DNA of 64,000 nucleotides, taken from NCBI GenBank assembly GCA_017656305.1, contig JACDOG010000005.1:62001-126000 (forward strand), in the 5' to 3' direction. Positions 12,597 to 52,924 of the stretch are shown here, one piece after another. A model generated the notes under the pieces. It saw only the letters and a list, made by a program, of their open reading frames with translations. It did no database searches and was not told the DNA's origin. The position numbers and the translations under genes were made by a program. This stretch comes from Thermoanaerobacteraceae bacterium. Lineage in GTDB: Bacteria; Bacillota; JADQBR01. Position 1 is the first letter of the stretch; each line of letters starts with the position of its first letter.

Positions 12597-12782
12597 TGTT
12601 TATACCTCCTTCCTCAATCTGTGTTACTACAAGGTACAAAAAACAGTCCGAATTAGTTTTATCATGCCCATATAAGACGCCTGGTATTTCCCCAAGACCT
12701 TCCGAAATATTGGGCCACCACAGGTAACTGGATGTTGACACCGGTAAAGTTCAATGATACACTAATCATAAATTTAAAAATA

Positions 12783-12875
12783 GTTAGCAGGGGTGCCGCA
12801 AGGCTGAGAAACGAATATGCTGGTATTCGTTACCCTTTGAACCTGATGTGGGTAATACCACCGCAGGGAGCTAAC
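12783..12875 (+). promoter_or_regulatory. TPP riboswitch (THI element)
   Basis: The closing stem GTTAGC (12783-12788) with GCTAAC (12870-12875) encloses the conserved blocks GGGGTGCC, GGCTGAGA, ACCCTTTGAACCTGAT and the end GCAGGGA. It lies upstream of thiM and is followed by a terminator at 12927-12955, so it should attenuate the thi operon when thiamine pyrophosphate is plentiful. Confidence 0.97.
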
Positions 12876-12926
12876 GACATCAAGAATTTCGCCACCCTAA
12901 ACTGTCAGTAGACTCTGTATGCGCAT

Positions 12927-30633: not shown

Positions 30634-31551
30634 TTACTTCTCTATATTACCCGCTATATATTCTTTACAAAATTTCATAAAATGTTCACAAGCCAGCGAG
30701 GGAACCTGTTCTTTGAATAGCAAAAAACGAAAGGTTCTTTTTAAAGAACATCCTTCCAATGCTGCCGCTTTGAGACTACCCGCAGCCAATTCTTCCTGCA
30801 CAGTTAATTTAGACAGTACGGTAACTCCTAAATTTTCTTTCACCAGGGCTTTTATAGCCTGCGTACTACCCATTTCCATGAAAACATTTAGCTCGCCAAG
30901 TTTTTTGCCCATACCGGTAACGGCATTTTCAATTACTTTGCGGGTACCGGAACCCGGTTCGCGCAGAATCAATTTTTCCTTTGTAAATTCATCCCAGGAA
31001 ACAATATCTCGTCCCGCCCACCTGTGTCCTGGCGCAAATAATACTAGCATCTCGTCAGTCATAAATTCCTGTTCTATCAAACGCTTGTTGGTAATAGGCC
31101 CTTCTACCAAAGCTAAGTCTATCTCATGCTGGCTAAGCATGTTTTCTATGGTTTGGGTATTCTCCACCTCCAGCAAAAAATCCACTTCAGGAAATTTTTG
31201 CTTGAATGCACCCATAATGGCCGGCAGTAAATACTCCCCTATTGTGAGAGTAGCCCCTAATCGCAGCGATCCTCTTACTTCGTTCTGCAGCCGGTTTATT
31301 TCTCGCGTAGCCTCATCTGCGAGCACGGAAATACGCTGGGCATAATCCAATAACACTTTGCCTGCCGGGGTTAGCGTTATTTCCTTTTCATATCTTTTAA
31401 ACAACTTCACTCCCAAAGTATCTTCCAGTTGCTGAATTTGAATGCTTACCGCCGGCTGGCTAATATGTAAATAATCCGCAGCACGGGAAAAGTTTTTTCT
31501 TTCTGCAACAACCATAAAAGTTTTTATACGGGAATCAAGCATATTAATCAC
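30634..31551 (-). CDS. LysR family regulator
   Basis: 305 residues. The HTH is RIKTFMVVAERKNFSRAADYLHISQPAVSIQIQQLEDTLGVKLFKRYEKEITLTPAG, followed by a periplasmic-binding-like effector domain that starts GSLRLGATLTIGEYLLPAIMGAFKQKFPEVDF. The GATLTIGEYLLP stretch is typical of CysB/CbbR-like members, some of which are tied to sulfur or selenium metabolism. The gene lies just upstream of the reductase on the same strand and is divergent to the ASKHA gene. The inverted repeat at 31626-31652 may be its site. Confidence 0.9.
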   Translation of the reverse strand: MINMLDSRIKTFMVVAERKNFSRAADYLHISQPAVSIQIQQLEDTLGVKLFKRYEKEITLTPAGKVLLDYAQRISVLADEATREINRLQNEVRGSLRLGATLTIGEYLLPAIMGAFKQKFPEVDFLLEVENTQTIENMLSQHEIDLALVEGPITNKRLIEQEFMTDEMLVLFAPGHRWAGRDIVSWDEFTKEKLILREPGSGTRKVIENAVTGMGKKLGELNVFMEMGSTQAIKALVKENLGVTVLSKLTVQEELAAGSLKAAALEGCSLKRTFRFLLFKEQVPSLACEHFMKFCKEYIAGNIEK

Positions 31552-33953: not shown

Positions 33954-35567
33954 TTACTCCTCCAAGAATTCAAAAAACGGCCTGTCCAAGTCTGCCAAAG
34001 CATTTACCACCAGTTCGACTATGCCAGCATACTGAACATTGTACTTGGCAGTCAATTGGTAATGTTCCAAAATATCTCTCATAGAACCCTTGCAGTTGGA
34101 ACACGGTGCACAAATATACTTAGGAATACTGGCATCCTCCAGTGTATCCTGAAATACTTCAAGAATCTGCTTGACTTTCATTCTGACACTGACATTTTTC
34201 CGCCATTCGGGAAAGTTAAAAGAATTCATAATGGCAAAGCCACTGCCGCCACCGCAACAATAGTTATACACACCATGGGGTGTCATTTCCCAGAACTGCG
34301 GCGCAACAGCCTTTAATATATCCCGCTGCGGTTTGACAATACCCATTTGCCGGACAACGTTACACGGGTCATGCAGCGTGACGGGAAAATTATTTTTGCT
34401 TGGATCCAGTTTAAGCCTGTTATCTTTGATAATATCCCTTAAAATGGGCAGAAAACTCTCCACCGGGACCTTGTTAGCGCCGTAAGTCATCCTGTCAGCC
34501 GTCACTACGGCAGCTTTGTGCGCGTGACCGCACTCTCCCAGCACAATGCGCTTGACTCCCAACTTTCTGGCAGCTTCAAACTGTTTTAAAGCAATTTTCT
34601 TCGCTTGCCCGTCATCGTAAAAAAGCCCATAATTGACATTGTCATAACCCAGCAAATCGCTACTTAAGGTCCAGTCCAAACCAGCTTCCTCGAACAATAT
34701 CGCAAAGGCCATGGGATTTTCCGGCCAGGACATGTACTCCCCCGCATTGTGAATCAGTAGAATGTCTGCTCCTTCCTTATCAATGGGTATCTTTATTTTC
34801 TTACCGGTTTTCTCTTCCAGGTCTTCCTCCAAAAACTCAATAATATCCAAAAAAGCCGGTTTGGTAAGCCCCGTAGAGGAGCCGGTCTTCAACTGTAATT
34901 CCGTTCCTTTTTCATGTAATGCTTTTGGCGCAATTCCCAGTTCCTGACTGAAAATTTTCCTGATTTCCCTGGCAAGCAAACCGTTATCCAAACCGAGAGG
35001 GCATGTCTGGGCACAGCGTCTGCACAGGTTGCACCGGTAGGACAGTTCTCCCAAACGAGCCACTGTTTCCCAATTAAGGTCAATATCAGCACCTACCAGG
35101 CCGCCCAGCAGCCTACCGCTTTTAGTAAAGTATTTTTTGACAATCTTTCGCAGCACTTCGGATCGATAGATGGGGCGATACAATTCATGCCCCTCGGTGC
35201 TTTGAAAAATATGGCAGGCTTCTGAGCAAGTGTTGCATTTGGCACAATATTCTATGGAAAGCTTCAGCGGCTGAATGATGCCCCTGTTGGTTTCCTCCGA
35301 CAGCATTTTTCCCAAACCTTGCAGAAACTTCCTGACAAATTCCTCTTCCTCTTCCTTTGTTTCCGGCCGTTTTAGCGTATCGATAGCAATAAAGCCGTCC
35401 AGAGTTGTACAATATTTTTCCCGCCATTCTTCTTTTGGCTCCTTAAATTCCGGAGCCGTATCCAGCTTGTCAAACGGACCGGGTAAAGGCATTAATCTAT
35501 CAATCTTTGTCAGCTGGTCAGCCGGCTTACCCATATCCCGTGGCTTTAAGTGCTTACCATTTATCAT
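33954..35567 (-). CDS. dsrK: DsrK-type (HdrD-like) iron-sulfur subunit, second copy
   Basis: 537 residues. Two [4Fe-4S] motifs, CAKCNTCSEACH (near 110) and CNLCRRCAQTCP (near 180), are followed by two CCG-type regions: CGHAHKAAV with DPCNVVRQMG and YNYCCGGGSG, then CAPCSNCKGSM. The last are the heterodisulfide-reductase-like catalytic cluster ligands. DsrK takes electrons from the membrane subunit DsrM and is thought to reduce the DsrC trisulfide. It follows dsrM2 by 31 bases as the last gene of its unit, before the element at 33786-33928. It is about as long as the DsrK at 47649-49265 but clearly different in sequence. Confidence 0.88.
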   Translation of the reverse strand: MINGKHLKPRDMGKPADQLTKIDRLMPLPGPFDKLDTAPEFKEPKEEWREKYCTTLDGFIAIDTLKRPETKEEEEEFVRKFLQGLGKMLSEETNRGIIQPLKLSIEYCAKCNTCSEACHIFQSTEGHELYRPIYRSEVLRKIVKKYFTKSGRLLGGLVGADIDLNWETVARLGELSYRCNLCRRCAQTCPLGLDNGLLAREIRKIFSQELGIAPKALHEKGTELQLKTGSSTGLTKPAFLDIIEFLEEDLEEKTGKKIKIPIDKEGADILLIHNAGEYMSWPENPMAFAILFEEAGLDWTLSSDLLGYDNVNYGLFYDDGQAKKIALKQFEAARKLGVKRIVLGECGHAHKAAVVTADRMTYGANKVPVESFLPILRDIIKDNRLKLDPSKNNFPVTLHDPCNVVRQMGIVKPQRDILKAVAPQFWEMTPHGVYNYCCGGGSGFAIMNSFNFPEWRKNVSVRMKVKQILEVFQDTLEDASIPKYICAPCSNCKGSMRDILEHYQLTAKYNVQYAGIVELVVNALADLDRPFFEFLEE

Positions 35568-35597: not shown

Positions 35598-36482
35598 CTA
35601 CTTCTTTTCATCTGTCGTTTGCCAGTGAGGAGCAGACCACGTTATTTTCGGTTTAAACTGTGAGCCCTCCTGTATTTTCTTTTCCACTTTACTTCCTGGT
35701 AAGTTGGGGGCATTGTCCCACAGCACCTTATGGAAAGTGAAGTACTTACCTGCATAATGACTCATTTTCGTTAAGGGAATATAGATTAACAGAAGTCCCA
35801 GTAGAATAATGTGGACCGTCAATGCTGCATCAGCCTGAATTGGCTGAAAGGTCAGCAAACTTCGCGCCATTTCTCTACCATAATTAAAACCTACATCCTG
35901 TTGCCAAACGTTTATCCCAGACACTACCGTTGAAAAAATGAAGAGCAGGTTGAAATATTCCTGAGCACTGGTATATTTTTTGAAAGAAGGCATTACCAAC
36001 CGCTTGAAAAGAAGTGCTGCCGAACCAAAAGCAGTAAGTACAGCACCTGCGGCTCCGGTCAAAATAGTCAGGTAATAAATCAATCGTGCCAATCCACCTG
36101 AAGAAGGAACTGCTACTCCAACAAGCTCGAAACCTGCTCCCGTAAATATCAGAATAGTCCAACCTATCAGCAGATAAATCCCTAAATGTAGCGCATAGGA
36201 TAACCACCATAAAGACTTCTGGTGTTCAAAAAGCCGCTTGATAAACAGCATCTCCTGCAACATTTCCTTCAGCTCGCCCGCAAAGGATATTTCGTGCTTT
36301 TTCCTCCACCAGCCGCTTTCTTCCATGTATGAACCACCGTACTCAGCCTTGCCTTTTTCTTTAGGAATAGGGTAAAGGTCCAGTCTGCCGTGTACAGGCA
36401 TTCTGGCATACTGTACCGCCTTGTACAAGGACAGAAAAATAAAGGACAACAGGGCAAAATAAGAAAATATCAACAGTAACAT
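35598..36482 (-). CDS. dsrM: DsrM-type membrane cytochrome b subunit, second copy
   Basis: 294 residues. Helices at the N-terminus (LLLIFSYFALLSFIFLSLY), near 100 (WWLSYALHLGIYLLIGWTILIFTGAGF), 140 (LIYYLTILTGAAGAVLTAFGSAALLF), 185 and 225 (AALTVHIILLGLLLIYIPLTKMSHYAGKYF) fit a NarI-like diheme cytochrome b; His in SYALHLG, TVHIILL and KMSHYAG are candidate heme ligands. It passes quinol electrons to DsrK. Paired with dsrK2 and lacking J, O and P, it forms the simple DsrMK type. Confidence 0.85.
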   Translation of the reverse strand: MLLLIFSYFALLSFIFLSLYKAVQYARMPVHGRLDLYPIPKEKGKAEYGGSYMEESGWWRKKHEISFAGELKEMLQEMLFIKRLFEHQKSLWWLSYALHLGIYLLIGWTILIFTGAGFELVGVAVPSSGGLARLIYYLTILTGAAGAVLTAFGSAALLFKRLVMPSFKKYTSAQEYFNLLFIFSTVVSGINVWQQDVGFNYGREMARSLLTFQPIQADAALTVHIILLGLLLIYIPLTKMSHYAGKYFTFHKVLWDNAPNLPGSKVEKKIQEGSQFKPKITWSAPHWQTTDEKK

Positions 36483-36555: not shown

Positions 36556-37155
36556 TCACTTATGGGATGTGCTGCCATTGGCACTATCCAGTTCATTTTG
36601 CAGTTGAGTAATAATTTTTTTTATTTTGATAGATATTCTACCTTGGGTGATATTATATTTTTCAGCAATCTCCACCTGTTTCAGCTTTTCCCTGCCGCCA
36701 ATGCCGTAAAAGCTAAATAGTATATCCTTTTCCATCTCAGATAAACCTGCAAGTATTTTTCGCAAGCACTCTTTTTCCTCTTTGGAACTAAATAATTCTT
36801 CGGGATTATAGTCATCACCACTAACTCTATCACAGACAGAAATGCTTTTGTTGTGTGAGCCGTTGCTGTCAACTTCAAATTCATCTTCCAGTCTCATACA
36901 AACGTCCCTGAAAAACCGCTTTCTCCGGCGCAAGTACATTCTAATCTCATTATCTATGCACTTGTAGGCAAAAGTAGAAAACTTTGTATTTCTGTCATTC
37001 TTATACTTACATATGGCTTTCAACAACCCGAAACAACCTTCCTGAAACAAATCATCATATTCATCCGCTGAATTAAGCCGGTACTTTTTAATCACCTTCC
37101 GTACCAGGTCATAGTTGTTATAAAACAGTTCCCTTTCCTTTTCAGTCAATGCCAC
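36556..37155 (-). CDS. Sigma-70 family factor inside the dsr locus
   Basis: 199 residues. Region 2 is clear (DEYDDLFQEGCFGLLKAICKYKNDRNTKFSTFAYKCIDNEIRMYLRRRKR, about 35-85), then a variable acidic part and region 4 (EMEKDILFSFYGIGGREKLKQVEIAEKYNITQGRISIKIKKIITQL). No region 3 or 1.1 is seen, so it belongs to the small group related to sporulation and alternative sigma factors. Start GTG at 37153-37155, five bases after GGGGAGGGG. It lies between cbiA and dsrM2 on one strand, so it may control sulfur genes or be a displaced sporulation factor. Confidence 0.85.
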   Translation of the reverse strand: MALTEKERELFYNNYDLVRKVIKKYRLNSADEYDDLFQEGCFGLLKAICKYKNDRNTKFSTFAYKCIDNEIRMYLRRRKRFFRDVCMRLEDEFEVDSNGSHNKSISVCDRVSGDDYNPEELFSSKEEKECLRKILAGLSEMEKDILFSFYGIGGREKLKQVEIAEKYNITQGRISIKIKKIITQLQNELDSANGSTSHK

Positions 37156-37233
37156 TGGTGCCCCTCCCCCAAAAAATTGGCATAATGGCTTCACACTTTT
37201 CCCAACGGCAATTTTGAAAAGTACGCTCACGAG

Positions 37234-38640
37234 CTACATGGCGGACAGTTCCCTTTCACGATTACCGCATGCCAGTTGTACAAAGTTTTTGGCCCATTGA
37301 GGAGTTGCCAAGCTGTGAATATGATTATAGGTAGCAAATACATTTTTGTATATAATTCCGTCTCTGCCATCTATCCCTTTACCCCGTTCCACGCTTAGGG
37401 CAAAGGAAATCTTACTTTCATCAATATTTATCAGCCTTGAATGATGAAATTCATGTCCCCTGATTTTTTCCAATAGCGTAAAATAGCCATTGGGTTCTAC
37501 TACTCTTGTTACCGTGTATCCATGCCCTTGGGGCTTTTTCTCCATAATTGCATCAAAAGGCAAAGCACCTACCATGGCATATTCCTGGCCTTGGTAAATT
37601 ATTCTTCTTCCCAGGTACATCAATCCGCCACATTCAGCATATACGGGCAGACCGTTATGAACGGCCTTATAGATGCTCTGGCGGAACAAAACATTTTTCT
37701 CCAATTCACCAGCAAATAACTCGGGAAACCCCCCGCCTATATACAGTCCATCCAGATTACCTAAAGAAGTATCGGAAAGAGAATCCAGAAACACCAGGTT
37801 CGCGCCTTCATCTTTCAGTTGCTGCAAGTTCTCTGGGTAGTAAAAAGAGAAGACGCGGTCTTTAATTACACCAATTGTAACGCTTTTGTCCGAGCTCCGC
37901 ACCATGGATTGTTTGCCGGCCAGCCCGGGAATACTCTCCATTTTGGTTGCATTGGCTATCCGTAAAATTTGCTGCAGGTCAACGTGTTGGGCAATCACAT
38001 CCCCGAGTTTGTCAACTACTTTGCAAAATTCATCCCGTTCATTGGCTGGAATCAAGCCCAGATGCCGGTCGGGAATGGTTAGCTCGGCATTTTTGGGGAT
38101 ACTGCCGACCACAGGAACCTTGCAGTATCTCTGAATAACTTCCCGCAGAATCCTCTCGTGCCGTGCATTGCCTACCTTATTTAAGATAACTCCTGCAATG
38201 TTAATCTCCCTGTCAAAATGCTGGTAGCCCATTACTGTGGCTGCCGCGCTCCTGGTCATCCTGGTACAATCAACCACCAGAATTACGGGGGCTTGAATGA
38301 TTTTAGCTATCTGCGCCGTACTGCCTGACCCTTCAAAGTCCAATCCATCATATAATCCCATAGCGCCTTCTACAATACTGATATCTGCACCCGCACCATG
38401 CTCGGTAAAAGATTGTATAATTGTTTCCTTGGACATCAGGACCGCATCTAAGTTGTGACAATCCCGACCGGTAATGGCTGTCATCCAGCCGGCATCTATA
38501 TAATCCGGACCTTTTTTAAATGCCTGAACTTTCATACCCATTTTGTTCAGTGCTGCCAGCAACCCCAAGGTAACTGTAGTTTTACCGGAACGACCTTTTG
38601 GTGCTGCAATAACCACTCGCGGAATAGTTTGGGCTACCAT
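37234..38640 (-). CDS. cbiA: Cobyrinate a,c-diamide synthase / siroheme amidase (CbiA/DsrN)
   Basis: 468 residues. N-terminal P-loop domain APKGRSGKTTVTLGLLAAL (residues 10-28) with the DethiobiotinS-like core, and a C-terminal glutamine amidotransferase with the catalytic Cys in VYAECGGLMYLGRR (near 335) and GHEFHHSRL. In sulfite reducers such genes sit with dsr and are called dsrN, thought to amidate siroheme for DsrAB. Here it is next to a persulfide reductase and a second dsrMK, without cobalamin genes, which favours that role; cobalamin synthesis remains possible. Start ATG at 38638-38640. Confidence 0.88.
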   Translation of the reverse strand: MVAQTIPRVVIAAPKGRSGKTTVTLGLLAALNKMGMKVQAFKKGPDYIDAGWMTAITGRDCHNLDAVLMSKETIIQSFTEHGAGADISIVEGAMGLYDGLDFEGSGSTAQIAKIIQAPVILVVDCTRMTRSAAATVMGYQHFDREINIAGVILNKVGNARHERILREVIQRYCKVPVVGSIPKNAELTIPDRHLGLIPANERDEFCKVVDKLGDVIAQHVDLQQILRIANATKMESIPGLAGKQSMVRSSDKSVTIGVIKDRVFSFYYPENLQQLKDEGANLVFLDSLSDTSLGNLDGLYIGGGFPELFAGELEKNVLFRQSIYKAVHNGLPVYAECGGLMYLGRRIIYQGQEYAMVGALPFDAIMEKKPQGHGYTVTRVVEPNGYFTLLEKIRGHEFHHSRLINIDESKISFALSVERGKGIDGRDGIIYKNVFATYNHIHSLATPQWAKNFVQLACGNRERELSAM

Positions 38641-38670
38641 GATTTTCCCTCCCAAAAAACCAAAACTTGT

Positions 38671-40380
38671 TTATCTTTTCGCAACTGGTAAAGCCTTAAG
38701 CCCGCCGGCCAGAGATTTTACATTTTCAAAACCCGCTCCCTTGAGCACTCGAACAGCCTCATATGCCCTGACGCCTAAAGGACAGAGAACTATTACTAGT
38801 CGGTCCCGGGGAACTTCGTTCAATCGTTCTCGCAATTCCCCTAAAGGAATGTTAATTACATTAGGTTTGTTTAACGGCCTCATTCTTACCTCATTTTCCG
38901 TCCGCACATCCAAAAAAACCAGGTCCTGGTTATCCTGCGTCATTTTTACTAGTGCAGACGGCATCACTACTTCTAATAATTCATCCTGAATATTTTTCAA
39001 AGTATTGGCGGAGTGATTGGCCAAATCTATAGCAGTAGCAAACATGGGTGCATAAGCCAGTTCCATCTGCCGTAAATCGTCTATGTTTCCTTCCATTGCA
39101 ATGACACTGGCAATGACATCTAAACGTTTGATGACATCACCCTCGCCAATGACCTGCACACCCAGCAACCTTCCGTTGTCCCGGTCAGCAATAAGTTTCA
39201 CAATTCCCGAGCCGTGCATCGGATAATAGTGGGTAGCATCCAGCCCGGATACAATACTGGTCACCGTGTTAAAGCCGGCGGCCTTTGCCTGTTCTTCGGT
39301 TAAACCGCTGCGGCCAACATTGACATCAAATACCCGCACTGCTGTAGTACCTAAAACACCGGGAAATTTTTCATTCATACCAGCAATATTATTGGCAATA
39401 ACTCTGCCCTGTTTATTTGCAATTGAAGCCAGGGGCAGATAACACGGCTGGCCGGTAATCCGGTGTATGTTCTCAACACAGTCGCCACCGGCAAAAATGT
39501 CCGGATCACTTGTAGTGAGATATTCGTCTACGACTATACCGCCAGTTGAACCAACTCTTAAACCGCACTCCCGGGCTAGCCTGGTGTTTGGTTTTACGCC
39601 ACAGGCCAAGACCACCAAGTCTGCCTCCAGGGCATGGTTGGTAGTGCGTACCAGTTTGACATTATGTCCCTCCCGTGAGTGTTCTTCAATTGCGATAACA
39701 CTTTCTCCCAACAACACTTCTACTCCATTGACTTCCACATTTTCCTCTAACAACGGAGCCAGGTCCGGGTCCAACATGCTGCTCAGCAAAACATTTTCTT
39801 TTTCTACAATCACAATTTTTCGATTACGATGGTTTAGCGCTTCCGCGACCTCCAGACCAATTAACCCACCACCAACTATTACTATATTCTTGACGCTGGC
39901 ATCAATCTTTTGCTTTAATGCCAGGGCATCCTGGGGGCAGTGCAATGCCAGCACTCCCGGCAGGTCCGTACCCGGCACCGGAGGGTAAACCGGCTCTGCT
40001 CCAGTCGCCAGTACCAGTTTGTCATACGGCAGCCTGCGCCGTTTACCGTCTGCACCACTATTCTTGTCATAAATCACGACCTCTTTTTTTACGCGGTCAA
40101 TAGCTTCAGCGACGGTACCGGATAGAAAGTTAATATCCTTCTCTCGTTTAAAGTAGTCCGTATTGCGAACAATCCCTGCAGTAGTAGTCATTAAATCATT
40201 TATGCTGGGGATCAAACCGCCGACATATAACGGCATGCCGCACCCACCATAGGAAATATATTCGTTCTGTTCGATAACAGTAATTTGCGCCTCAGGCATC
40301 AACCGTCTCAATCTGGCCGCTGTTTTCGGACCGGTAGCTACTCCACCGACAATAACAATCCGTTTGCCTTCCATAGCCAC
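38671..40380 (-). CDS. CoA-disulfide/persulfide reductase with rhodanese domain, dsr-linked paralogue
   Basis: 569 residues. FAD motif GGVATGPKTAARLRR (about 10-24), redox Cys in YISYGGCGMPLYVGG (about 45-59), NAD motif VIVGGGLIGLEVAEAL, and FAGGDCVENIHRITG. The C-terminal rhodanese domain begins near 470 (LVFLDVRTENEVRMRPLNKPNVINIPLGEL) with active Cys in VIVLCPLGVRAYE. The YGGCGMP stretch is typical of NADH-dependent persulfide reductases. It is the first gene of the cbiA-sigma-dsrM2-dsrK2 unit, 31 bases before cbiA, which ties persulfide or polysulfide handling to DsrMK. Confidence 0.9.
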   Translation of the reverse strand: MAMEGKRIVIVGGVATGPKTAARLRRLMPEAQITVIEQNEYISYGGCGMPLYVGGLIPSINDLMTTTAGIVRNTDYFKREKDINFLSGTVAEAIDRVKKEVVIYDKNSGADGKRRRLPYDKLVLATGAEPVYPPVPGTDLPGVLALHCPQDALALKQKIDASVKNIVIVGGGLIGLEVAEALNHRNRKIVIVEKENVLLSSMLDPDLAPLLEENVEVNGVEVLLGESVIAIEEHSREGHNVKLVRTTNHALEADLVVLACGVKPNTRLARECGLRVGSTGGIVVDEYLTTSDPDIFAGGDCVENIHRITGQPCYLPLASIANKQGRVIANNIAGMNEKFPGVLGTTAVRVFDVNVGRSGLTEEQAKAAGFNTVTSIVSGLDATHYYPMHGSGIVKLIADRDNGRLLGVQVIGEGDVIKRLDVIASVIAMEGNIDDLRQMELAYAPMFATAIDLANHSANTLKNIQDELLEVVMPSALVKMTQDNQDLVFLDVRTENEVRMRPLNKPNVINIPLGELRERLNEVPRDRLVIVLCPLGVRAYEAVRVLKGAGFENVKSLAGGLKALPVAKR

Positions 40381-40459
40381 AGCTCCTTATTCTCCGCATT
40401 AATAGTCCTATCACCAATACTAAATTACAAAACAAAAAGTTTTCTCTGACAGATTTCTA

Positions 40460-40503
40460 AAAAACCACCGGTGGAATAAAATATACCCACCGGTGATTTT
40501 TTA
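40460..40503. terminator. Bidirectional terminator between dsrC and the persulfide reductase unit
   Basis: CACCGGTGG (40466-40474) and CCACCGGTG (40487-40495) pair around a 12-nt AT-rich loop. The minus side continues GTTTTTT after dsrC; the plus side continues ATTTTTT. It separates the dsrAB-C unit from the next operon. Confidence 0.88.
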
Positions 40504-40540: not shown

Positions 40541-40855
40541 TTATACACAACCAGTCGGTTTCGGCAACCCGGCAATTTTGCAGGCGCCTTTTGCCGGTCC
40601 TGATGGAAATAGCTCATAAATTTCTTTAAGGGAAAAGCCGGTTTCCTTGGTTACCTTGCGTACCATCGGTGCAATGCCATACTGTTTGTAATAATCTCTC
40701 AGGTAGTTAATAACTTTCCAGTGGTCCTCAGTTAATTCTTCAACTTCCTCTGTTTTTGCCAAATATTCGGCTACAGCCTCATCCCATAAATCCGGATCCG
40801 TAATGAAACCATCCTCATCAACTTCAATTACCTTGCCATTAACTTCAAAGCTCAT
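40541..40855 (-). CDS. dsrC: DsrC, sulfur-carrier substrate of DsrAB and DsrMK
   Basis: 104 residues. DsrC receives sulfur from DsrAB as a trisulfide between its C-terminal cysteines. The end GPAKGACKIAGLPKPTGCV carries both: Cys92 and Cys103, ten residues apart, the arrangement of functional DsrC and not of the one-Cys TusE/RspA forms. The body has GFITDPDLWDEAVAEYLA and LTEDHWKVINYLRDYYKQYGIAPMVRKVTKE. The ATG at 40853-40855 follows GGAGGTG; the frame from 40969 is too long. It is the last gene of the dsrA unit and is followed by a strong terminator. Confidence 0.96.
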   Translation of the reverse strand: MSFEVNGKVIEVDEDGFITDPDLWDEAVAEYLAKTEEVEELTEDHWKVINYLRDYYKQYGIAPMVRKVTKETGFSLKEIYELFPSGPAKGACKIAGLPKPTGCV

Positions 40856-41410: not shown

Positions 41411-42484
41411 TTACTTAGTATACTTAAAGTTGGTAGTGGTTCTAAACGTCGGCACGGAGAAGATAAAGTCATCTATATGCTTATCTGTAAATGGTAGTTC
41501 GGCAATTTCAAAAAATTTCTCCCAGCCGATTCTTTCAATCCACTCGCCGTATCTTTCGCCTTTTTTCGCATTTTTGACCCATATTTCTACCAGGTTTTTG
41601 ATAGCACTGACCAGTTCATCCCATCTTGGCGGGTTATTGGGTACCCAGGGAATAGCCAACCGGGAAAATGAAGGGCCTGATCGCGCGTTGGATACCTTGC
41701 CACCTACAAAGATAGCCAAACCGTCATTTTCTGGGTCAATAATTTTCATTGACGGGCAAACTGTATAACAGTTACCGCAGTACATGCATTTTTCTTCATT
41801 AACGCTGACGCTTTTGGCCTTAGGATTGGGGCGAATAGCTCCCGTAGGGCACGCAGCGATTACATTGGGAATCTCGCAGTTTTTCGCCACACCTTCGTCG
41901 TCTATCTTGGGTATAGTCCGGTGTATGCCCACAAAAGCAATGTCCGAACAGTGAACCGCACCGCACATATTTAGGCAGCATGCCATGGATATCTTTAACT
42001 TGGCCGGCAGGTCATCAGTTTTAAAGTAATCGAACAATTCGTCCATTACCGCTTTTACCGGACCAGAGGCATCCGTGGCAGCGCTGTGACAGTGAATCCA
42101 TCCCTGAGTATGAATGATATTGTTTAAACAATTTCCAGTCCCGCCAACAGGCCAACCTCTTTCTTCCAGCTCGGCAATTAACGGTTCTACTTTCTCCGGA
42201 TCATCAACCAAAAATTCCACGTTGTGTCTTGAAGTAAACCGCAAGTGCCCGTTGCAGTACTTGTCGGCTATGTCAGCAAACTCGCGAAGAGAAGTTATAC
42301 TTAGCAGGCGCGGGGAACCGGCACGAACCGTATACAACTCGTCGCCTGTTTCACTAACGTGCTTCAGCACCCCTGGTTTAATTCTTTCAAAATACTTCCA
42401 CTTGCCATAATTATCCTTAATAATTTGGGGCAGCATCTCTTCATAATGTGGAGGACCAATATCAGTTCTACCTTTGGCTACCAT
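41411..42484 (-). CDS. dsrB: Dissimilatory sulfite reductase beta subunit
   Basis: 357 residues. DsrAB reduces sulfite by six electrons at siroheme-[4Fe-4S] and loads the product on DsrC. Signatures: [77 protein letters not shown], and the ligand pair C-x3-C in MACCLNMCG (Cys170, Cys174). A ferredoxin domain follows with [12 protein letters not shown] (Cys233 to 243). It follows dsrA by a one-base overlap. The ATG at 42482-42484 has a GAGGGGGATG ribosome site. Confidence 0.97.
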
Positions 42485-43695
42485 TATTTTTCATCCCCCT
42501 CTTCTTTTTGTACCAATTCATCAGGCCACCAGAAGAAGTACGGGTTAGCCCGCGGATGATGAACCATCTGCGCTTTAGGTTCAAGGCCTACCTCTTTTAG
42601 GAAGGTTCTCATCCCCTTCCTATAAATCAACTCACCAATTCTCTCTCTTACCTTGGCGTTTTCATCCCACCATTCCCAAATGCGTTCCAGTAAGTCTTTC
42701 AGTTCTGCATAACCATCCTCTTTGTTCAACTTCATAAACGGAACAATAACCCAGGATAAGAATGCCGATTGAACAATAGTAGCCTTACCACCAATTAGAA
42801 TAGTAGCACCGCAGTCCTTACCAATGCGAAGTGCCTTAGGCATCTTGTTGATACAGTGCATACATCTTACACAGTTTTCATCATCAACTGTAAACTCGGC
42901 TTTTTCTTTATCAAAAGCACAGGCTTTAGTCGGACACTTATCGACTACCAAACCTTGAATATCCATGCCACTTGCCGCATACTCCTTTACGGCCTCTGCA
43001 TCAATGCGAATGGAATCTCGCCAGGTACCAATAATTGACAGGTCGGCCCGGGCAATGGATGAAACACAGTCATTTGCACAGCCGGAAATTTTTATTTTAA
43101 ACTTGTAGGGCCACATAGGCCTGTGCAGCTCATCCTGGTATTCGTTGGTTAAATTATGACACAAGTGTAAAGTATCAAAGCAGGCATTATTGCATCGTGC
43201 CGGCCCCACGCAGCAGCTGGGTGTTCTTAAGTCGGAACCGGAACCACCTAAATCCCAACCGTTTTCCGCAAGCTCATCAAAACACGGCTGCAGGTGGTCG
43301 GTAGTAGTACCCAACAGTACTGCATCACCAGTAGCACCGTGCATGTTGGTCAATCCCGAACCGTGTTTTTCCCAGATGTCAGCCAGATTTCTCAAAGCAT
43401 CAGAGGTATAAAACCATCCTGATGGCTGGTTAACACGCATGGTGTGAAACTCCTGCACATTGGGGAACTCTTCCGGAATATCACAGTACCTACCGATAAC
43501 ACCGCCGCCATATCCTCTAACACCAACAATACCACCGTGTTTCCAGTGACACATTTTATCTTCATAAGATCTTTCCAGCAGGTCGATAGCTTCTTCTGTC
43601 ATTTTGTTGCCGGCCTGCTTTTCCATTTCCTTTACAAAACTGGGCCATGGACCCTTTTTCAGTTCATCCAACAATGGTCTCTTCTTATCTGACAT
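42484..43695 (-). CDS. dsrA: Dissimilatory sulfite reductase alpha subunit
   Basis: 403 residues. The siroheme-[4Fe-4S] ligands are seen as C-x5-C in CVGPARC (Cys162, Cys168) and C-x3-C in GCANDC (Cys206, Cys210). The ferredoxin insert has CPTKAC near 254 and CVRCMHC near 275-281. The N-terminal part holds [49 protein letters not shown]. With DsrD downstream and no DsrEFH or DsrL in the window, this is most likely the reductive type. The ATG at 43693-43695 follows GGTGGG. Confidence 0.97.
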
Positions 43696-43743
43696 TCCTT
43701 TCCCACCTCGCATAAAAAGTTTTCGCTTGCGGTTCCCGAGAGA

Positions 43744-43926: not shown

Positions 43927-44294
43927 GCGTTTCACCTCCCATGCAATAATTTAATAAGCCTCCCTTGTTCTTGTTAACACTTTAACAATCAATACTACAG
44001 AGTTTGTTGTTCATTATTGATTGCTTATTACTTTGTCTAAAATAGTGAAATATCGAAACCAGGGCTTTCACCCCTAATGAAATCAGTTATCAAAAAAATT
44101 GCGACAACACTGCCAATGCAACATATTTAGTTTTAATCCTAAATGCTAATAACATATTTCGACTTTTTTCAAGAGATTCCTCCTTTTTTCTGTGTATTTC
44201 CCCGGAAAATTTCTGCAACAGCTGATGTTTTTCTGGTATATCGAAAATACTTATAAGTTTTTTTGCTTATAATTAAAATTTGTTGTTAATTAAA
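43927..44294. other. 368-bp AT-rich gap with the dsrA-unit promoter region
   Basis: No gene on either strand. It holds the upstream region of ferredoxin-dsrAB and, at the far end, the 3' side of dsrM. The one clear site is the palindrome at 43971-43988. Confidence 0.7.
43971..43988. promoter_or_regulatory. CRP/FNR-type palindrome before the dsrA unit
   Basis: TTGTTA and TAACAA separated by six bases, a perfect 6-N6-6 inverted repeat 45 bases upstream of the ferredoxin start. The geometry matches CRP/FNR-family sites, including those of HcpR-like regulators of sulfate-reduction genes; the regulator is not known here. Confidence 0.55.
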
Positions 44295-45302
44295 CTACTC
44301 TTTTTCAACGGGTATCCCAACCGCTTTCATAACCTGCCTGAATTCATCCTCATATTCCTCATAGGAGTGAACCTCAACCGGATAATTCCACGGGTTAATA
44401 TGACGCCTTGCTCGGCTGTCATTAGGAAGATTTCGCGTCGGACTTAAAAAGATACCTCCCATGTGTACCAGCTTGCTAAATGGAAAATAGGCAAACAGAA
44501 CACTCACCAGAAACAGGTGAATATAAAACAATACGCTGATTCCTTCTGGCACAGTCGGATTGAAGGTTGCCAAACCCAAAGCCAATTGCTTAACCGCGAC
44601 AACATTCTCCCGCATAAAATAACGCATGAGGATACCGGTTAATGCCAAAGTAAAAATCACCAGCAGCGGAAAGTAGTCGGAAAGTAATGATATATAACGC
44701 ACTTGGGGAATAGCAACCCGTCTGATAAAAAGATAAGTCACAGCTAAAAGCAGAATAATACCGCTTACATAAATATGCTGCAGACCAATTTCAAAAAAAC
44801 CGTCCACACTGCTGATGACCTTCACGAATGAAGGAATAGGGTCCGCAAAAAAGCGCAAGTGCCTGATAATTACCAATAGCATGGACCAATGAAACAGCAG
44901 TCCCGCCAGCCACAGCCATTTTTCCCAAGTGTAAACTATTTTCGGACCATCTTTCAGTTCCGCACGCACGTTGCGAAACAGCGATCGAAAAAAGAGCACT
45001 TCCAAAGCCATCCGTGCAATTACACCGGCCGTGCTGGCAGGGTTATCAATTTTATTTGATTTAATCCACGGCAGTGATTTTTGCTGTCCGCAAGTAGTAG
45101 GTATTCGAAAGGGAACGGGTGACTGCGCCCATTTGACTATACGGTATACGACACCCGCCAGGAAGATGAAAAACGCGGCGTACGGTATGACAACCCCAAA
45201 CAAAAATTGCAAACCAGCTACCTGAACTCCCAAAAACGCCAGCAAAACCAGGGCTATAACCAATAACGCGGATAATCCCATGCCCATCTTCAAATCCCCC
45301 AT
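44295..45302 (-). CDS. dsrM: DsrM, membrane cytochrome b of DsrMKJOP
   Basis: 335 residues with helices near 10-30, 35-52, 125-150, 175-195, 205-230 and 255-280, among them WLWLAGLLFHWSMLLVIIRHLRFF, VRYISLLSDYFPLLVIFTLALTGILMRYF and ISVLFYIHLFLVSVLFAYFPFSKLVHMGGIF, whose His residues fit heme b ligands. It is thought to oxidise menaquinol and feed DsrK. Here it is the last gene of the K-J-O-P-M unit, whereas in most organisms dsrM comes first. An in-frame ATG six codons in is a possible alternative start. Confidence 0.93.
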   Translation of the reverse strand: MGDLKMGMGLSALLVIALVLLAFLGVQVAGLQFLFGVVIPYAAFFIFLAGVVYRIVKWAQSPVPFRIPTTCGQQKSLPWIKSNKIDNPASTAGVIARMALEVLFFRSLFRNVRAELKDGPKIVYTWEKWLWLAGLLFHWSMLLVIIRHLRFFADPIPSFVKVISSVDGFFEIGLQHIYVSGIILLLAVTYLFIRRVAIPQVRYISLLSDYFPLLVIFTLALTGILMRYFMRENVVAVKQLALGLATFNPTVPEGISVLFYIHLFLVSVLFAYFPFSKLVHMGGIFLSPTRNLPNDSRARRHINPWNYPVEVHSYEEYEDEFRQVMKAVGIPVEKE

Positions 45303-45324
45303 TTCACTATGTTTCTGTCAATTT

Positions 45325-46479
45325 CTATTCCACTTCAGCTTTCACTGAAACAACCAGCTTATAAAACACGCTGAGCAGGAAAAGCCCTACCGCCCAAATA
45401 CCCAGACTGACCATAATTTCCGGTAGCGTAGGTACGTATTCCGTAACAGTTTCAAACGGGTTGGGAATAAAACCTCCCACTACGAAACTAATACCTTTTT
45501 CAATGAGCATTGAAACAAACACCGCCACACATGCCAAAAGTAACGCCCCATCATTGCGACGCATTTTCGGGTTAAGCAGGATAACCAGGGCAAATACCGC
45601 CAGCACCACAAACAGCCACATTAGGGGCACCAGTTTGCCATGCCCTTCAATTCCCATAAATAAATACCGTAGACTGAGCATATGCCCTGGAACTTTGCTG
45701 TAAAAAGCCGTAAAAAACTCCACTGCAATCATAAAAAGTGTTATTACCAAGGCATAAGTAACAATTAATGACAACTTTTGCACAGCTGCTTTTCCGGCGT
45801 CAAAATTGGCATACCTTTTTAATATATAAGTTAAAATAATCAACAACGCCGGCCCGGTGGCAAAAGCAGACGCGAGAAACTTTGGAGCTATCAGAGCAGT
45901 TAACCAGAAGTCTCTCCCGGCCAGACCGGAATACAGAAAGGCAGTTACCGTATGAATACTGAAAGCCCAGGGAATAGAAACATAAATTAACGCTTTCACC
46001 CACTTAGGCGGCGCTACTGAATTGCGTTCTGCCTCCAAAACATTCCAGGCAATTAATATATTTAAGAGCAGGTAACCGTTTAATACCACCATATCCCAAA
46101 ACATGACCGAATGCGGCGTAGCATAAATTAGCACATTGAACAGCCTGGTTGGCATCCCCATATCGACAATGATAAATAACAAGCACATAATCACGGAGGA
46201 AACAGCCAAAAATTCCCCCAACACAGTTATCCTGCCAAACTCTTTGACATTATGCAGGTAATACGGTAAAACCAGCATCACTGCCGATGCCGCAACCCCC
46301 ACAATAAAGGTGAACTGCCCTATATATAACCCCCAGGACACGTCTCTGCTCATACCGGTAACAGTCAGGCCTTCGCGTAATTGTATGAGGTAAAAAAACA
46401 GTCCTAACGCCATGAGCCCCAGCAAACACAACAGCCAATTTCTGTATAACCTGCTGCCTTTAAAAGCTTTTTCCAACAT
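45325..46479 (-). CDS. dsrP: DsrP, NrfD-like membrane subunit
   Basis: 384 residues, ten predicted helices, no cofactor motif. Family features include DVSWGLYIGQFTFIVGVAASAVMLVLPYYLHNVKEFGRITVLGEFLAVSSVIMCLLFIIVDMGMPTRLFNVLIYATPHSVMFWD and IPWAFSIHTVTAFLYSGLAGRDFWLTALIAPKFLASAFATGPALLIIL. NrfD/DsrP proteins exchange electrons with quinones through the partner ferredoxin DsrO. It sits between dsrO and dsrM with short gaps. Confidence 0.94.
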   Translation of the reverse strand: MLEKAFKGSRLYRNWLLCLLGLMALGLFFYLIQLREGLTVTGMSRDVSWGLYIGQFTFIVGVAASAVMLVLPYYLHNVKEFGRITVLGEFLAVSSVIMCLLFIIVDMGMPTRLFNVLIYATPHSVMFWDMVVLNGYLLLNILIAWNVLEAERNSVAPPKWVKALIYVSIPWAFSIHTVTAFLYSGLAGRDFWLTALIAPKFLASAFATGPALLIILTYILKRYANFDAGKAAVQKLSLIVTYALVITLFMIAVEFFTAFYSKVPGHMLSLRYLFMGIEGHGKLVPLMWLFVVLAVFALVILLNPKMRRNDGALLLACVAVFVSMLIEKGISFVVGGFIPNPFETVTEYVPTLPEIMVSLGIWAVGLFLLSVFYKLVVSVKAEVE

Positions 46480-46496
46480 ACAATACCCACTCCCCT

Positions 46497-47261
46497 TTAC
46501 ACTAAATAATAAACGTTGGGATGCGTACCCAATTCCACCCGACGCTGTAATGCAAGTCGTGTTGTCAGCAGTTTTCTAACCTGTGAATGGGGATTTTCCA
46601 GATCACCAAAAGCAAGCACATTTCTAGGACAAGCTTCTACGCATAAAGGAAGCAGTCCGGCGGCAAGTCTTTCAGCGCAAAAGTTGCATTTTTCAACAAC
46701 ACCTTTTCTTCTAGCGGGGTACTCCAGGTTCTTTTGTTTGATACAAGGGCGCGGGTCTTGAAAATTAAAACTCCGGGCTCCATAGGGACATGCAGCCATA
46801 CAGTACCGGCACCCGACGCACCTGTGATAATCCATCATAACGATGCCGTCTTCCCTTTTATAGGTAGCTTTCGTCGGGCAAACTCTCACGCAGGCGGGAT
46901 TCTCGCAGTGATTACACATGACCATACAATGATGCTTTTGGGCCCCATGGCCGACATATTTATTTTCCAAACCGGGAAAGACTTTTTCGAAAGGCTCGCT
47001 CCAAATCCATTTAACTTCCTCTTCCCGGTCCTTAATATCCGGCACATTATGCGCCGCGTGACACGCTCTCTGGCATTTCATACAGTTATCACACTTGTTA
47101 ATATCTACTACCATGGCCCATCTTTTGCCCGCCAGGGCTTTGGGCGCGGGGGAAAAACGTTCTTGTCCGGTTCCCGCCAGTGCACTGGCAATTGGTAATG
47201 TGCCCAGCCCCAGCATCCATGTTCCGCCTATCTTGAAAAATTTTCTCCTGCTAATTTTCAT
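46497..47261 (-). CDS. dsrO: DsrO, exported iron-sulfur protein
   Basis: 254 residues. A twin-arginine signal (SRRKFFKIGGTWMLGLGTLP) directs the folded protein across the membrane. Four [4Fe-4S] motifs follow: CDNCMKCQRACH, CNHCENPACVRVCP, CVGCRYCMAACP and CNFCAERLAAGLLPLCVEACP. It is the extracytoplasmic electron-transfer partner of DsrP and DsrJ. It overlaps the dsrJ stop by one base. Confidence 0.95.
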   Translation of the reverse strand: MKISRRKFFKIGGTWMLGLGTLPIASALAGTGQERFSPAPKALAGKRWAMVVDINKCDNCMKCQRACHAAHNVPDIKDREEEVKWIWSEPFEKVFPGLENKYVGHGAQKHHCMVMCNHCENPACVRVCPTKATYKREDGIVMMDYHRCVGCRYCMAACPYGARSFNFQDPRPCIKQKNLEYPARRKGVVEKCNFCAERLAAGLLPLCVEACPRNVLAFGDLENPHSQVRKLLTTRLALQRRVELGTHPNVYYLV

Positions 47262-47656
47262 TACTCATCCCCCTTTGCCTCAAGATGACAGCTCCAGCAG
47301 ACCGGTTTCACGCCAGCATAATCATGACACCGATCGCAAAATTCCTCTTTGTTTGAATGACATTTTAAACACGTGTTCTGCAGGCTCATATCATACGTCT
47401 TGCCGTCGGAGGCTCTGTAAATCCTCATTCCTTCCCTGGCCACGGCATTTTTCCATTCCATAAGTAATTCCATATGCCTTCTTCTCATAAAGTCTCTAGA
47501 CTCAACGCATTGTTTCTCTTCCAGTTGGTTAATGGCAGGAGTATCAAGCTCCAGTACCGGGGCAACCGAGTCGTTTCCCAATGCACTCCAAAACGGAAAT
47601 GTAGCCATAGCAATAAAAATAATTAATCCAGCAAGTATGTTTCGGGACTTATACAT
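47261..47656 (-). CDS. dsrJ: DsrJ, triheme cytochrome c
   Basis: 131 residues with an uncleaved signal anchor (NILAGLIIFIAMATFPFW) and three CxxCH motifs: CLKCH (96-100), CDRCH (107-111) and CWSCH (120-124). Cys50 in EKQCVESRDFMRRRHMELL matches the conserved Cys proposed as ligand of the unusual His/Cys heme. Start ATG at 47654-47656. It overlaps dsrK by eight bases. Confidence 0.93.
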   Translation of the reverse strand: MYKSRNILAGLIIFIAMATFPFWSALGNDSVAPVLELDTPAINQLEEKQCVESRDFMRRRHMELLMEWKNAVAREGMRIYRASDGKTYDMSLQNTCLKCHSNKEEFCDRCHDYAGVKPVCWSCHLEAKGDE

Positions 47657-49265
47657 CGCCACCATCCTCCGTTCTCAGCAGCGGTTCGCCACGCAAATTA
47701 GTGGTACGCTGCTTTTCACCCTTCATTATCAGCGCGTTGCCCACCAACTCATGAACTCCGGAAACACTGACCCCGGGAACCCAGTAGTTCATCAATGTCG
47801 GCAGCGCGGCTCTATCTACAGCACAAATGCACGTCAAAGTATTGACATCGTATTTTTCATGTACGTATTTAACCGCATTAGCTCTAGGCAGACCGCCTTT
47901 CATCCTCATGACCATATTTTCTTCGGCATTTAAACCAGCACCACTGCCGCAACAGAAGGTCTTTTCCCGAATAGTCTCTTCAGGCATTTCATAAAAGTAA
48001 TTACAAGTATTTTTTATGATGTAGCGCGGCTCTTCAAACAGGCCCATCGCTCTGGCAGGATTGCAAGAATCGTGAAACGTAATCCTAAAGTGGTCGTTCC
48101 GGGATGGATCCAACTTCAGCTTGTTATTCCGGATAAGGTCTGCTGTAAACTCTACGATATGAACCATCTTGGTAGATTTAGCGTTTTCAAACTTGGTGCC
48201 TGTTATGGGAGAAACCGGCTCTTCTAAAAAATCAGCCGGGCCGTTCATGGTATTCATGTACTGATGTACCACCCGCCACATGTGACCGCACTCGCCTCCA
48301 AGTATCCACTTGACTCCCAATCTTTCGGCCTCGGCATACATCTTTGCATTAAGACGCTTCATCATTTCATGCGAGGTAAAGGAGCCAAAGTTACCGCCTT
48401 CGGAAGCATAAGTGCTCAAAGTATAATCAAGCCCTATCTCATGAAATAACATCAGGTAACCCATAAAAGTATAAATACCGGGATCAGCAAAAACGTCACC
48501 CGACGGTGGAATAAATAGTATTTCCGCTCCCTTTCTGTTAAATGTCGGCTCCACTCGTATGCCGGTAACATCTTCAATATCATCTGCCAGCATTTCCACC
48601 ATATCCTTTAAAGCGTGCGGTTGAATGCCCAGGTGGTTTCCCTTTTTATAACAGTTGGCCACAGGAGAAGCAATCCATTCAATGTTGCAGCCCAGTAAGT
48701 TAAGCAGTTCCCGGGCGATAATGGTAATTTCGGCAGTATCTATCCCATATGGACAAAATACCGAGCAGCGGCGGCACTGCGTGCACTGGAAGAAGTAATA
48801 AAACCATTCTTTAACAACATCTTCCGTCAGTTCCCGTGCCCCAGCCATTTTTCCCAGAAGTTTGCCGGCAACGGTAAATTCCTTTCGGTAAATTGAGCGC
48901 AGCAGTTCCGCTCTCAGCACAGGCATATTCTTTGGATCACCAGTCCCCAGAAAGAAGTGGCATTTGTCAGCACAGGCGCCGCACCTGACACAGATATCCA
49001 TGAAAATTCTCAAAGAGCGATACTTTTCCAACCGCTCTCTCAGTCCTTCAAAAATAACTTCCTTCCAGTTTTCTGGAAGTTTCCAATCTTCTTCCTCCGG
49101 AGACCATTTTCTTGGATTGGGAAGCCCCACTGCTTCCAGGCTTTCCGGTTTTGCAGCATAGCACCACATACCCTCTTCAAATTTCACAGGCATATCCATC
49201 CATGGCTTTGCCGGAGGTTTATGATCGATGTTAACTAGCTGTTCTGGCTTTGGAACTTTTGCCAT
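47649..49265 (-). CDS. dsrK: DsrK, catalytic iron-sulfur subunit of DsrMKJOP
   Basis: 538 residues. [4Fe-4S] motifs CVRCGACADKCHFF and CTQCRRCSVFCPYG, then HdrD-like ligand regions CGHMWRVVHQYMNT, DSCNPARAMG and FCCGSGAGLN, ending with CICAVDRAALPTLMNYW. The conserved CCG site is the proposed place of DsrC trisulfide reduction. It is the second gene of the unit, 66 bases after the RsbRD-like gene, and dsrJ follows by overlap. Confidence 0.95.
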   Translation of the reverse strand: MAKVPKPEQLVNIDHKPPAKPWMDMPVKFEEGMWCYAAKPESLEAVGLPNPRKWSPEEEDWKLPENWKEVIFEGLRERLEKYRSLRIFMDICVRCGACADKCHFFLGTGDPKNMPVLRAELLRSIYRKEFTVAGKLLGKMAGARELTEDVVKEWFYYFFQCTQCRRCSVFCPYGIDTAEITIIARELLNLLGCNIEWIASPVANCYKKGNHLGIQPHALKDMVEMLADDIEDVTGIRVEPTFNRKGAEILFIPPSGDVFADPGIYTFMGYLMLFHEIGLDYTLSTYASEGGNFGSFTSHEMMKRLNAKMYAEAERLGVKWILGGECGHMWRVVHQYMNTMNGPADFLEEPVSPITGTKFENAKSTKMVHIVEFTADLIRNNKLKLDPSRNDHFRITFHDSCNPARAMGLFEEPRYIIKNTCNYFYEMPEETIREKTFCCGSGAGLNAEENMVMRMKGGLPRANAVKYVHEKYDVNTLTCICAVDRAALPTLMNYWVPGVSVSGVHELVGNALIMKGEKQRTTNLRGEPLLRTEDGGDV

Positions 49266-49330: not shown

Positions 49331-49849
49331 TTAACCGCACGCATTGCTCAATCTTTGAACCATGTGATACTCCCGTTTTATTTCGTTCACTTTTGCCTGA
49401 TAAATTTGCTCCCTGGCTTCCATATACTTGTCAAATGCCAGCAGGGCCAGTTCATCCAGCCATTTATCCATTTCCTGCAACTCAGTTTCGGAAACATACC
49501 CTTCACTAATTTCCTTACCCAGTTGGTCCCTTACGACATCCTTTAATTTAAAAATAAAGGCTATCGCCTGGGAAGGAGACGAGTCATAAACTGCCTTAAT
49601 CTTAATCAGTTCCTCTAAAATGGAATGCAACTCACCAGTAGCCGCACCCCGAACAAGGCCTTCGTATAACCCAGCCGCCTGCCGGTAAAAGGCTGTTCCC
49701 ACCGGGTTGGCAAACTGGTTTTCTTCCTGCTTGAGAAACTTAGCAGTCTCCGGGGGATAAAACTCCAAAATCGTTTCAAACCACCTGTTGAGAATGACTT
49801 TTTGTTTTTGCTGGAGGCATTCTTTTAAATTGCAGTTCTTCAGTTTCAT
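49331..49849 (-). CDS. RsbRD N-terminal-domain protein, first gene of the dsrKJOPM unit
   Basis: 172 residues, all helical: LKECLQQKQKVILNRWFETILEFYPPETAKFLKQEENQFANPVGTAFYRQAAGLYEGLVRG and SPSQAIAFIFKLKDVVRDQL. This matches the globin-like non-heme sensor domain (RsbRD_N) without the STAS part. Such genes are common before dsrMKJOP in sulfite reducers; function unknown, probably sensory or assembly related. The ATG at 49847-49849 follows GGAGAG. Confidence 0.8.
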   Translation of the reverse strand: MKLKNCNLKECLQQKQKVILNRWFETILEFYPPETAKFLKQEENQFANPVGTAFYRQAAGLYEGLVRGAATGELHSILEELIKIKAVYDSSPSQAIAFIFKLKDVVRDQLGKEISEGYVSETELQEMDKWLDELALLAFDKYMEAREQIYQAKVNEIKREYHMVQRLSNACG

Positions 49850-49927
49850 CTTCTTTCTCTCCTCACCGTGCAACATTACACCCATATTCCACCTCTTTTC
49901 CACTGGCACTGAAATTGTGCGGCAGGC

Positions 49928-51042: not shown

Positions 51043-51777
51043 CTAATTATTTCTGCTGTATTTACTTTTTAAGAATAGCGCATAATCTAACACATTTTGT
51101 TTTTCCTCCGTATTCATCTCGCTTAACAGATCGACAATATTCTTGACCACAGGATCATCTGCCAGCATACCCTTTGTTTTATACCGTTTTATCAAATCTA
51201 CCAGCCCGCGAAACAGTTCCATTTCTTCCACCGAAAGTTCTTCTTGAATATCATTTAAATCTACCGGTTCGTTTTCTTCTTTTTGGGGCTGGTTCGGCGG
51301 ACACACTTCCTCAGAAAGTACTTCCTGCTGTTCTTCGGTAAAAAAGTCCGTTACAGGCACTCCCAATACAGCAGCAAGTTTACTGATAGTTTTTAAGGAG
51401 GGGCAGGTGTTACCTCGCTCAATTTCACTAATATGCGTATAAGAAATGCCCGCCTGCTTTCCGAAATCAACCAGCGTTAAGCCTTTACGTTCCCGCAATT
51501 TTCTTATTTTTCGTCCCACGGCACCGGTGAGGTTACTAATTTGGTCAACCACTTCTTCTAAAGTATCGCTATCCTCCTCGGAGTCAAAATAGTCTTCAGG
51601 GAGTTCCATTATTACACAAAGCTTCTTAACCAGTTGCTTGCTTAATTTTCTCTTACCCTGTTCTACGTCTTTAAGACAACCTACCGGAATGTCCAGTTTT
51701 TCCGCCAGTTCTTGAACCGAAAGCCCTTTTTCTAACCTGAGTTTTTTTAATTTTTCTCCGCTTAACACCCCACTCAC
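51043..51777 (-). CDS. XRE-family regulator with two HTH domains
   Basis: 244 residues. The first HTH_3 domain (KLKKLRLEKGLSVQELAEKLDIPVGCLKDVEQGKRKLSKQLVKKLC) spans about 8-55 and the second (KIRKLRERKGLTLVDFGKQAGISYTHISEIERGNTCPSLKTISKLAAVLGVPVTDFF) about 90-145. The acidic C-terminal part (EENEPVDLNDIQEELSVEEMELFRGLVDLI) may bind a partner. Two HTH domains in one chain can contact a long operator alone. It overlaps the nitrilase gene by four bases and precedes the AsrC-like gene, which it may control. Confidence 0.88.
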   Translation of the reverse strand: MSGVLSGEKLKKLRLEKGLSVQELAEKLDIPVGCLKDVEQGKRKLSKQLVKKLCVIMELPEDYFDSEEDSDTLEEVVDQISNLTGAVGRKIRKLRERKGLTLVDFGKQAGISYTHISEIERGNTCPSLKTISKLAAVLGVPVTDFFTEEQQEVLSEEVCPPNQPQKEENEPVDLNDIQEELSVEEMELFRGLVDLIKRYKTKGMLADDPVVKNIVDLLSEMNTEEKQNVLDYALFLKSKYSRNN

Positions 51778-52610: not shown

Positions 52611-52924
52611 CCTTCCTTTAGCGCATCTTTTCTACCTTAATTAATATCTTAATATATCTGGTACTTATTATCAACTTCATACTTTGAATTTATGCTGTGG
52701 TATAAATTTAGTTTATGCTTTTTATAAAAATTTTTAAGTTTACCCAAATATTTATACTGACTTACTCATATAACTTAATGAAAGAGTTCTTTTTTTTACC
52801 TCCCATTTGTTCTTGTTATCACTATCTCATACCAACACCTTAATATCTGCAGTTTTTTCATATTGTCAAAGTAATATTTTTCTCTGTCTAAATCTAAAAA
52901 GAGAAACAATAATGTAAAGGGGGT
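52611..52924. other. 314-bp AT-rich divergent gap
   Basis: No gene. Very AT-rich between the nitrilase gene (minus) and the YeiH unit (plus). It must hold both promoters, but I could not pick a convincing -35/-10 pair. Confidence 0.6.

Follow-up and report, generated by a model that had tools for sequence, protein, structure and literature searches.

In the window analyzed, a 64,000-nt stretch of the genome of a Thermoanaerobacteraceae bacterium (contig JACDOG010000005.1, positions 62,001 to 126,000), a gene encoding a sigma-70 family factor lies among dsr genes (Table 1). As the first-pass annotation had it, this gene is located between cbiA/dsrN and dsrM2 on one strand and with short gaps, 78 nt downstream of the former and 73 nt upstream of the latter. 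The proteins deduced from dsrM2 and dsrK2 are DsrM-like and DsrK-like, respectively, both scoring below the equivalog cut-offs (39.7 bits versus 300 for DsrM and 397.5 bits versus 400 for DsrK). The intrinsic terminator behind dsrC parts the fdxD-dsrAB-D-C unit from the cdr/rhodanese-dsrN-sigma-dsrM2-dsrK2 unit, and a third unit of the dsr region, dsrT-dsrKJOPM, is also apart from that of the sigma gene. As terminator-like sites were found neither in the dsrN-sigma gap nor in the sigma-dsrM2 gap, the sigma gene is best placed in the cdr/rhodanese-dsrN-sigma-dsrM2-dsrK2 unit and, judged from strand, spacing and the missing terminator, would be co-transcribed with dsrN and dsrM2. A promoter-like site within the 3' end of dsrN (37352-37324, 10/12), however, counts against co-transcription. 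When searching the same genome for aprA, the best score was 389 bits (cut-off 642).

Table 1. Features of the dsr region and of other loci considered in the analysis. Positions refer to the window unless a contig or locus is given.
Feature	Position	Strand	Remarks
dsrK2	33954..35567	-	DsrK-like iron-sulfur protein
dsrM2	35598..36482	-	DsrM-like membrane cytochrome b
sigma-70 family gene	36556..37155	-	199 aa, GTG start; regions 2 and 4 only
possible N-terminal extension of the sigma gene	37156..37230	-	25 residues, in frame; GTG at 37230 without ribosome-binding site
dsrN/cbiA	37234..38655	-	TIGR00379, 499 bits
cdr/rhodanese	38671..40380	-	CoA-disulfide-reductase-like, rhodanese domain at the C-terminus; opens the unit with the sigma gene
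intrinsic terminator behind dsrC	40457..40503	-	18-bp stem, -25.9 kcal/mol, z -7.9, U-rich 3' side
dsrC	40541..40855	-	
dsrB	41411-42484	-	
dsrA	42484-43713	-	
perfect Rex-type operator	43971..43988	.	TTGTTAA-N4-TTAACAA; 35-52 nt before fdxD-dsrAB
dsrK, dsrJ, dsrO, dsrP, dsrM	44295..49265	-	in transcription order
DsrT-like protein	49331-49909		RsbRD_N (stressosome-type) domain; head of dsrKJOPM genes
sigK N-terminal half	G000 contig C8: 99708-100118 (L106:9708-10118)		same strand as C-terminal half
sigK C-terminal half	G000 contig C8: 49620-49964 (L152)		about 50 kb from N-terminal half
serine recombinase	C8:50160-51680		506 aa; adjoins sigK C-terminal half
SigW-like ECF sigma gene	L086:9470-10123		near second dsrAB copy of G151, opposite strand

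The longest minus-strand frame over the sigma gene spans 36556-37230 (224 aa, GTG start), while the plus-strand reading of 36556-37155 is interrupted by stops. By eye, the GTG at 37155 is preceded by a strong ribosome-binding site, GGGGGAGGGG-CACCA, and none is seen upstream of the GTG at 37230. Hence, 37155 is the better start, and the N-terminal extension is probably not translated. In the deduced product, the Pfam domains Sigma70_r2 (64.7 bits, cut-off 24) and Sigma70_r4 (31.4 bits, cut-off 24.1) both exceed their thresholds, which argues against a chance reading frame, and TIGR02937 is matched with 108.3 bits (cut-off 42.9). This places the protein in the sigma-70 superfamily and corroborates the 199-residue factor with regions 2 and 4 initially described. 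Region 1.2, a full region 3 and a pro-sequence are all missing from the 199-aa form, which begins at region 2 and thus does not show the pro-sequence of SigK and SigE. The GC content of the gene (0.387) is the lowest among window genes of at least 150 aa (mean 0.483, sd 0.037). Its codon usage is native-looking and does not point to a recent foreign origin. Single-sequence structure prediction of the protein was poor, with a mean pLDDT of 48.

The best named models for the protein are those of SigK, with 106 bits (cut-off 252) and, for a second SigK model, 100.5 bits (cut-off 298.7), followed by SigE (84 bits, cut-off 339), SigF (68, 321), SigG (67, 372) and SigH (45, 295). Accordingly, it stays below every equivalog cut-off (given as 252-349 bits for SigK/SigE). 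In a maximum-likelihood tree, the factor is found on a long branch whose position is not fixed. The AU test rejected grouping with SigK (p 0.014) and with SigE alone (p 0.023), but not with SigK plus SigE together (p 0.089). The phylogenetic comparison with spore sigma factors proposed in the first-pass annotation thus did not give clear orthology, and in view of the cut-offs missed by far and the rejected placements, orthology to SigE, SigF, SigG, SigH or SigK is dismissed. Nevertheless, there is resemblance to SigK and SigE (TIGR02846, TIGR02835; 31-36% identity), as in these a short linker replaces region 3, with region 2.4 comparing as IENEILMxLR versus IDNEIRMYLR. Unlike SigK and SigE, the factor has no region 1.2, no pro-sequence and no spore gene context.

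A close homolog was not found in the 399 genomes of the phylum scanned, the best matches being 33-37% identical and representing either SigK/SigE or members of a short family encoded close to dnaB/purA. The nearest relatives of equal length belong to the latter, i.e., short orphan sigma factors of 200-206 aa in genomes G033, G111 and G146 (L117-L119), which agree in architecture and share a DDYN-EE linker motif at 32-36% identity. However, their genes lie between dnaB and purA neighborhoods, not with dsr, and the joint clade has a support of 55/56. A profile of the four short sigma factors (A1) retrieved only its own four members from the 399 genomes; below a wide score gap, further matches have frames of SigK/SigE length. 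Extracytoplasmic function-type (ECF, group 4) sigma factors likewise possess only regions 2 and 4, have about 200 aa and match TIGR02937, whereas the present sequence is SigE/K-like and matches Sigma70_r4 instead of Sigma70_r4_2. As, in addition, an anti-sigma domain was not reported among the neighbors scanned with Pfam, ECF membership is rejected. A phage origin was also discarded, with GenBank phage matches being at most 36% identical among the matches listed and no relative found in IMG/VR; PHROG 351 matches every sigma factor tested and is therefore uninformative in this respect. Among the plasmid matches listed, identities are mostly 28-37%, with most of the protein covered.

In the collection of 399 genomes, the order and class of the organism comprise only three. 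A DsrA match is present in 54 of the 399; for 38 of these, not counting the organism studied here, dsr loci were read, 40 in all (776 kb). In none of these 40 loci does a sigma gene lie inside the dsr cluster (0/40), so that it is not a conserved dsr component, and a dsr operon with a sigma factor was not found in the literature searched either. The initial statement that an own sigma factor is non-standard for dsr operons is thus borne out. The Desulfosporosinus-type dsr cluster has dsrM2K2, dsrT, dsrN and fdxD (PMC6372793). In clusters of this type and in the loci L071 and L075 (genomes G004 and G043 from other families), the dsr gene set is the same as here, but a sigma gene is lacking. Moreover, the order dsrC-cdr/rhodanese-dsrN-dsrM2-dsrK2 is identical in L071 and L075, with dsrN-dsrM2 spacings of 0 and 13 nt, respectively. 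This tight junction in same-order relatives without the sigma gene indicates an insertion in the lineage studied here. In the same-family genome G001 (DsrA 82% identical), the dsr cluster is rearranged and also without the sigma gene. A 13-bp direct repeat, GAAAGGGAACTGT, found at the 3' end of dsrN and again at the 5' end of the sigma gene, is possibly a weak footprint of the insertion (P about 0.018 by shuffles; such repeats occur in 4/126 window tiles). The sigma factor in the dsr operon is a real oddity of one lineage and, as it is dispensable for the dsr pathway of the phylum, the claim is limited to this lineage. The first-pass annotation had named clear orthology to a known sporulation sigma factor together with a missing dsr link in relatives as evidence against its proposal; the latter was found, the former was not.

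With moderate confidence, we regard the protein as a lineage-specific orphan sigma factor that was captured by the accessory dsr unit, follows the expression of this unit and serves some promoter set. A fast-evolving orphan of the sigma-70 family, of the SigE/SigK-like kind with regions 2 and 4 and without pro-sequence, was inserted into the conserved dsrN-dsrM2 junction in this lineage, as the comparison with relatives shows. It would be transcribed with the cdr/rhodanese-dsrN-dsrM2-dsrK2 unit, as strand, spacing and the missing terminator imply, so that its level would follow that of the unit. As neither an anti-sigma gene nor a pro-sequence is visible, control would be exerted at the level of synthesis. 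RNA polymerase might then be led by the factor to some promoter set, resulting in a second transcription program tied to sulfite/sulfur respiration, while the dsr genes themselves would probably be read by the housekeeping sigma factor together with other regulators, as in the sigma-less relatives. To our knowledge, regulation of dsr genes in Gram-positive sulfate and sulfite reducers is poorly understood, and a sigma factor within a dsr unit would provide a direct handle on it if acting on dsr genes. In any case, the locus may serve as a compact and testable example of a metabolic operon that captured a sigma factor.

It is rather unlikely that the gene is a neutral passenger, i.e., an orphan sigma gene whose place in the operon is accidental and that has targets unrelated to sulfur or is decaying. 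Such a reading would agree with its presence in one genome only and with the long branch. Besides, sigma genes are common, as region-2 matches occur at 15 places in the 2.70-Mb genome (about 1 per 180 kb). At the density of this genome, the 776 kb of dsr flanks should, by rough estimate, contain about 4 sigma genes; 1 was observed (L086), and it lies outside the operon. Sigma genes are thus no more frequent around dsr than expected and, with these genes being common, finding one of them embedded in 54 genomes with dsr is within chance placement. However, the reading frame is intact, both domains exceed the cut-offs and the ribosome-binding site is strong. Moreover, the insertion spared the operon, which is unbroken, with dsrM2 keeping a good ribosome-binding site behind the sigma gene.

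Unlikely, too, is a dedicated dsr sigma factor that transcribes its own unit and/or fdxD-dsrAB and dsrT-dsrKJOPM in a positive loop. In favor of this, the gene sits within the operon, and one AC-N16-CATA-N3-T / CATA-N3-TA site pair is present upstream of a nitrilase-like gene at 52610, which is SigK/SigE-like, as expected from the SigE/K-like region 2.4. In addition, ATTTAGGATT-rich blocks are common to the upstream regions of fdxD and dsrT and are found nowhere else in the genome (at most 1 mismatch), but as the pattern was defined post hoc from these same two sites, it is not counted as evidence. In contrast, when the upstream regions of ten genes of the dsr region were searched for SigK-, SigE-, SigH- and ECF-type patterns, the counts were those expected by chance (P 0.11-0.57), and the best de novo block common to the dsr units (score 15) was equalled in 23/100 shuffled sets. 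The shared -10/-35 variant upstream of the dsr units, which the first-pass annotation had suggested searching for, was consequently not found. As, furthermore, all relatives transcribe the same dsr operon without the sigma gene, the earlier idea of a factor directing the sulfur genes loses ground; control of dsr itself is possible, albeit unsupported. A minus-strand copy of TAACAAGAACAA precedes both the nitrilase-like gene at 52610 (copy at 52807-52818) and fdxD (copy at 43965-43976, where it overlaps with the Rex site); by shuffling, this sharing is not significant.

The palindrome upstream of fdxD-dsrAB, which matches the Rex consensus, has no second perfect copy in the 2.7-Mb genome, where a gene for a Rex protein is also present (C6:33966). 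Together, palindrome and Rex gene point to redox repression of an ordinary fdxD-dsrAB promoter via this putative site, while a Rex operator was not found in the dsr loci of relatives. An XRE-type double-HTH regulator (51043-51777) and a LysR regulator (30634-31551) recur beside dsr in many relatives. Both are more plausible than the sigma factor as conserved regulators of dsr. A self-contained circuit, with the operon sigma boosting sulfur respiration or a dedicated companion regulon and perhaps receiving input from the RsbRD_N protein whose gene precedes dsrKJOPM, appears quite improbable. Homologs of this DsrT-like RsbRD_N protein are present in several sigma-free dsr clusters (L063, L073, L080, L082, L088, and L089).

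Highly improbable, finally, is the proposed link to sporulation, either as a sporulation sigma factor or by coupling sulfur respiration to sporulation: although SigK and SigE are the best named matches and share the short linker, the scores are far below the cut-offs, the AU test rejected placement with SigK and placement with SigE alone, a pro-sequence is missing, and the genome possesses its own SigE, SigF, SigG and SigH, all above cut-off, as well as a sigK interrupted by a skin-like element of about 50 kb with a serine recombinase, leaving no vacant spore role. Adjoining the C-terminal half of sigK, a run of minus-strand genes (C8: 39808-48160, L152) resembles a type III CRISPR (Csm/Cmr) locus, as judged by eye from the translations. 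Within the window, a TPP riboswitch (RF00059, 76 bits) is located at 12779-12886 on the plus strand.
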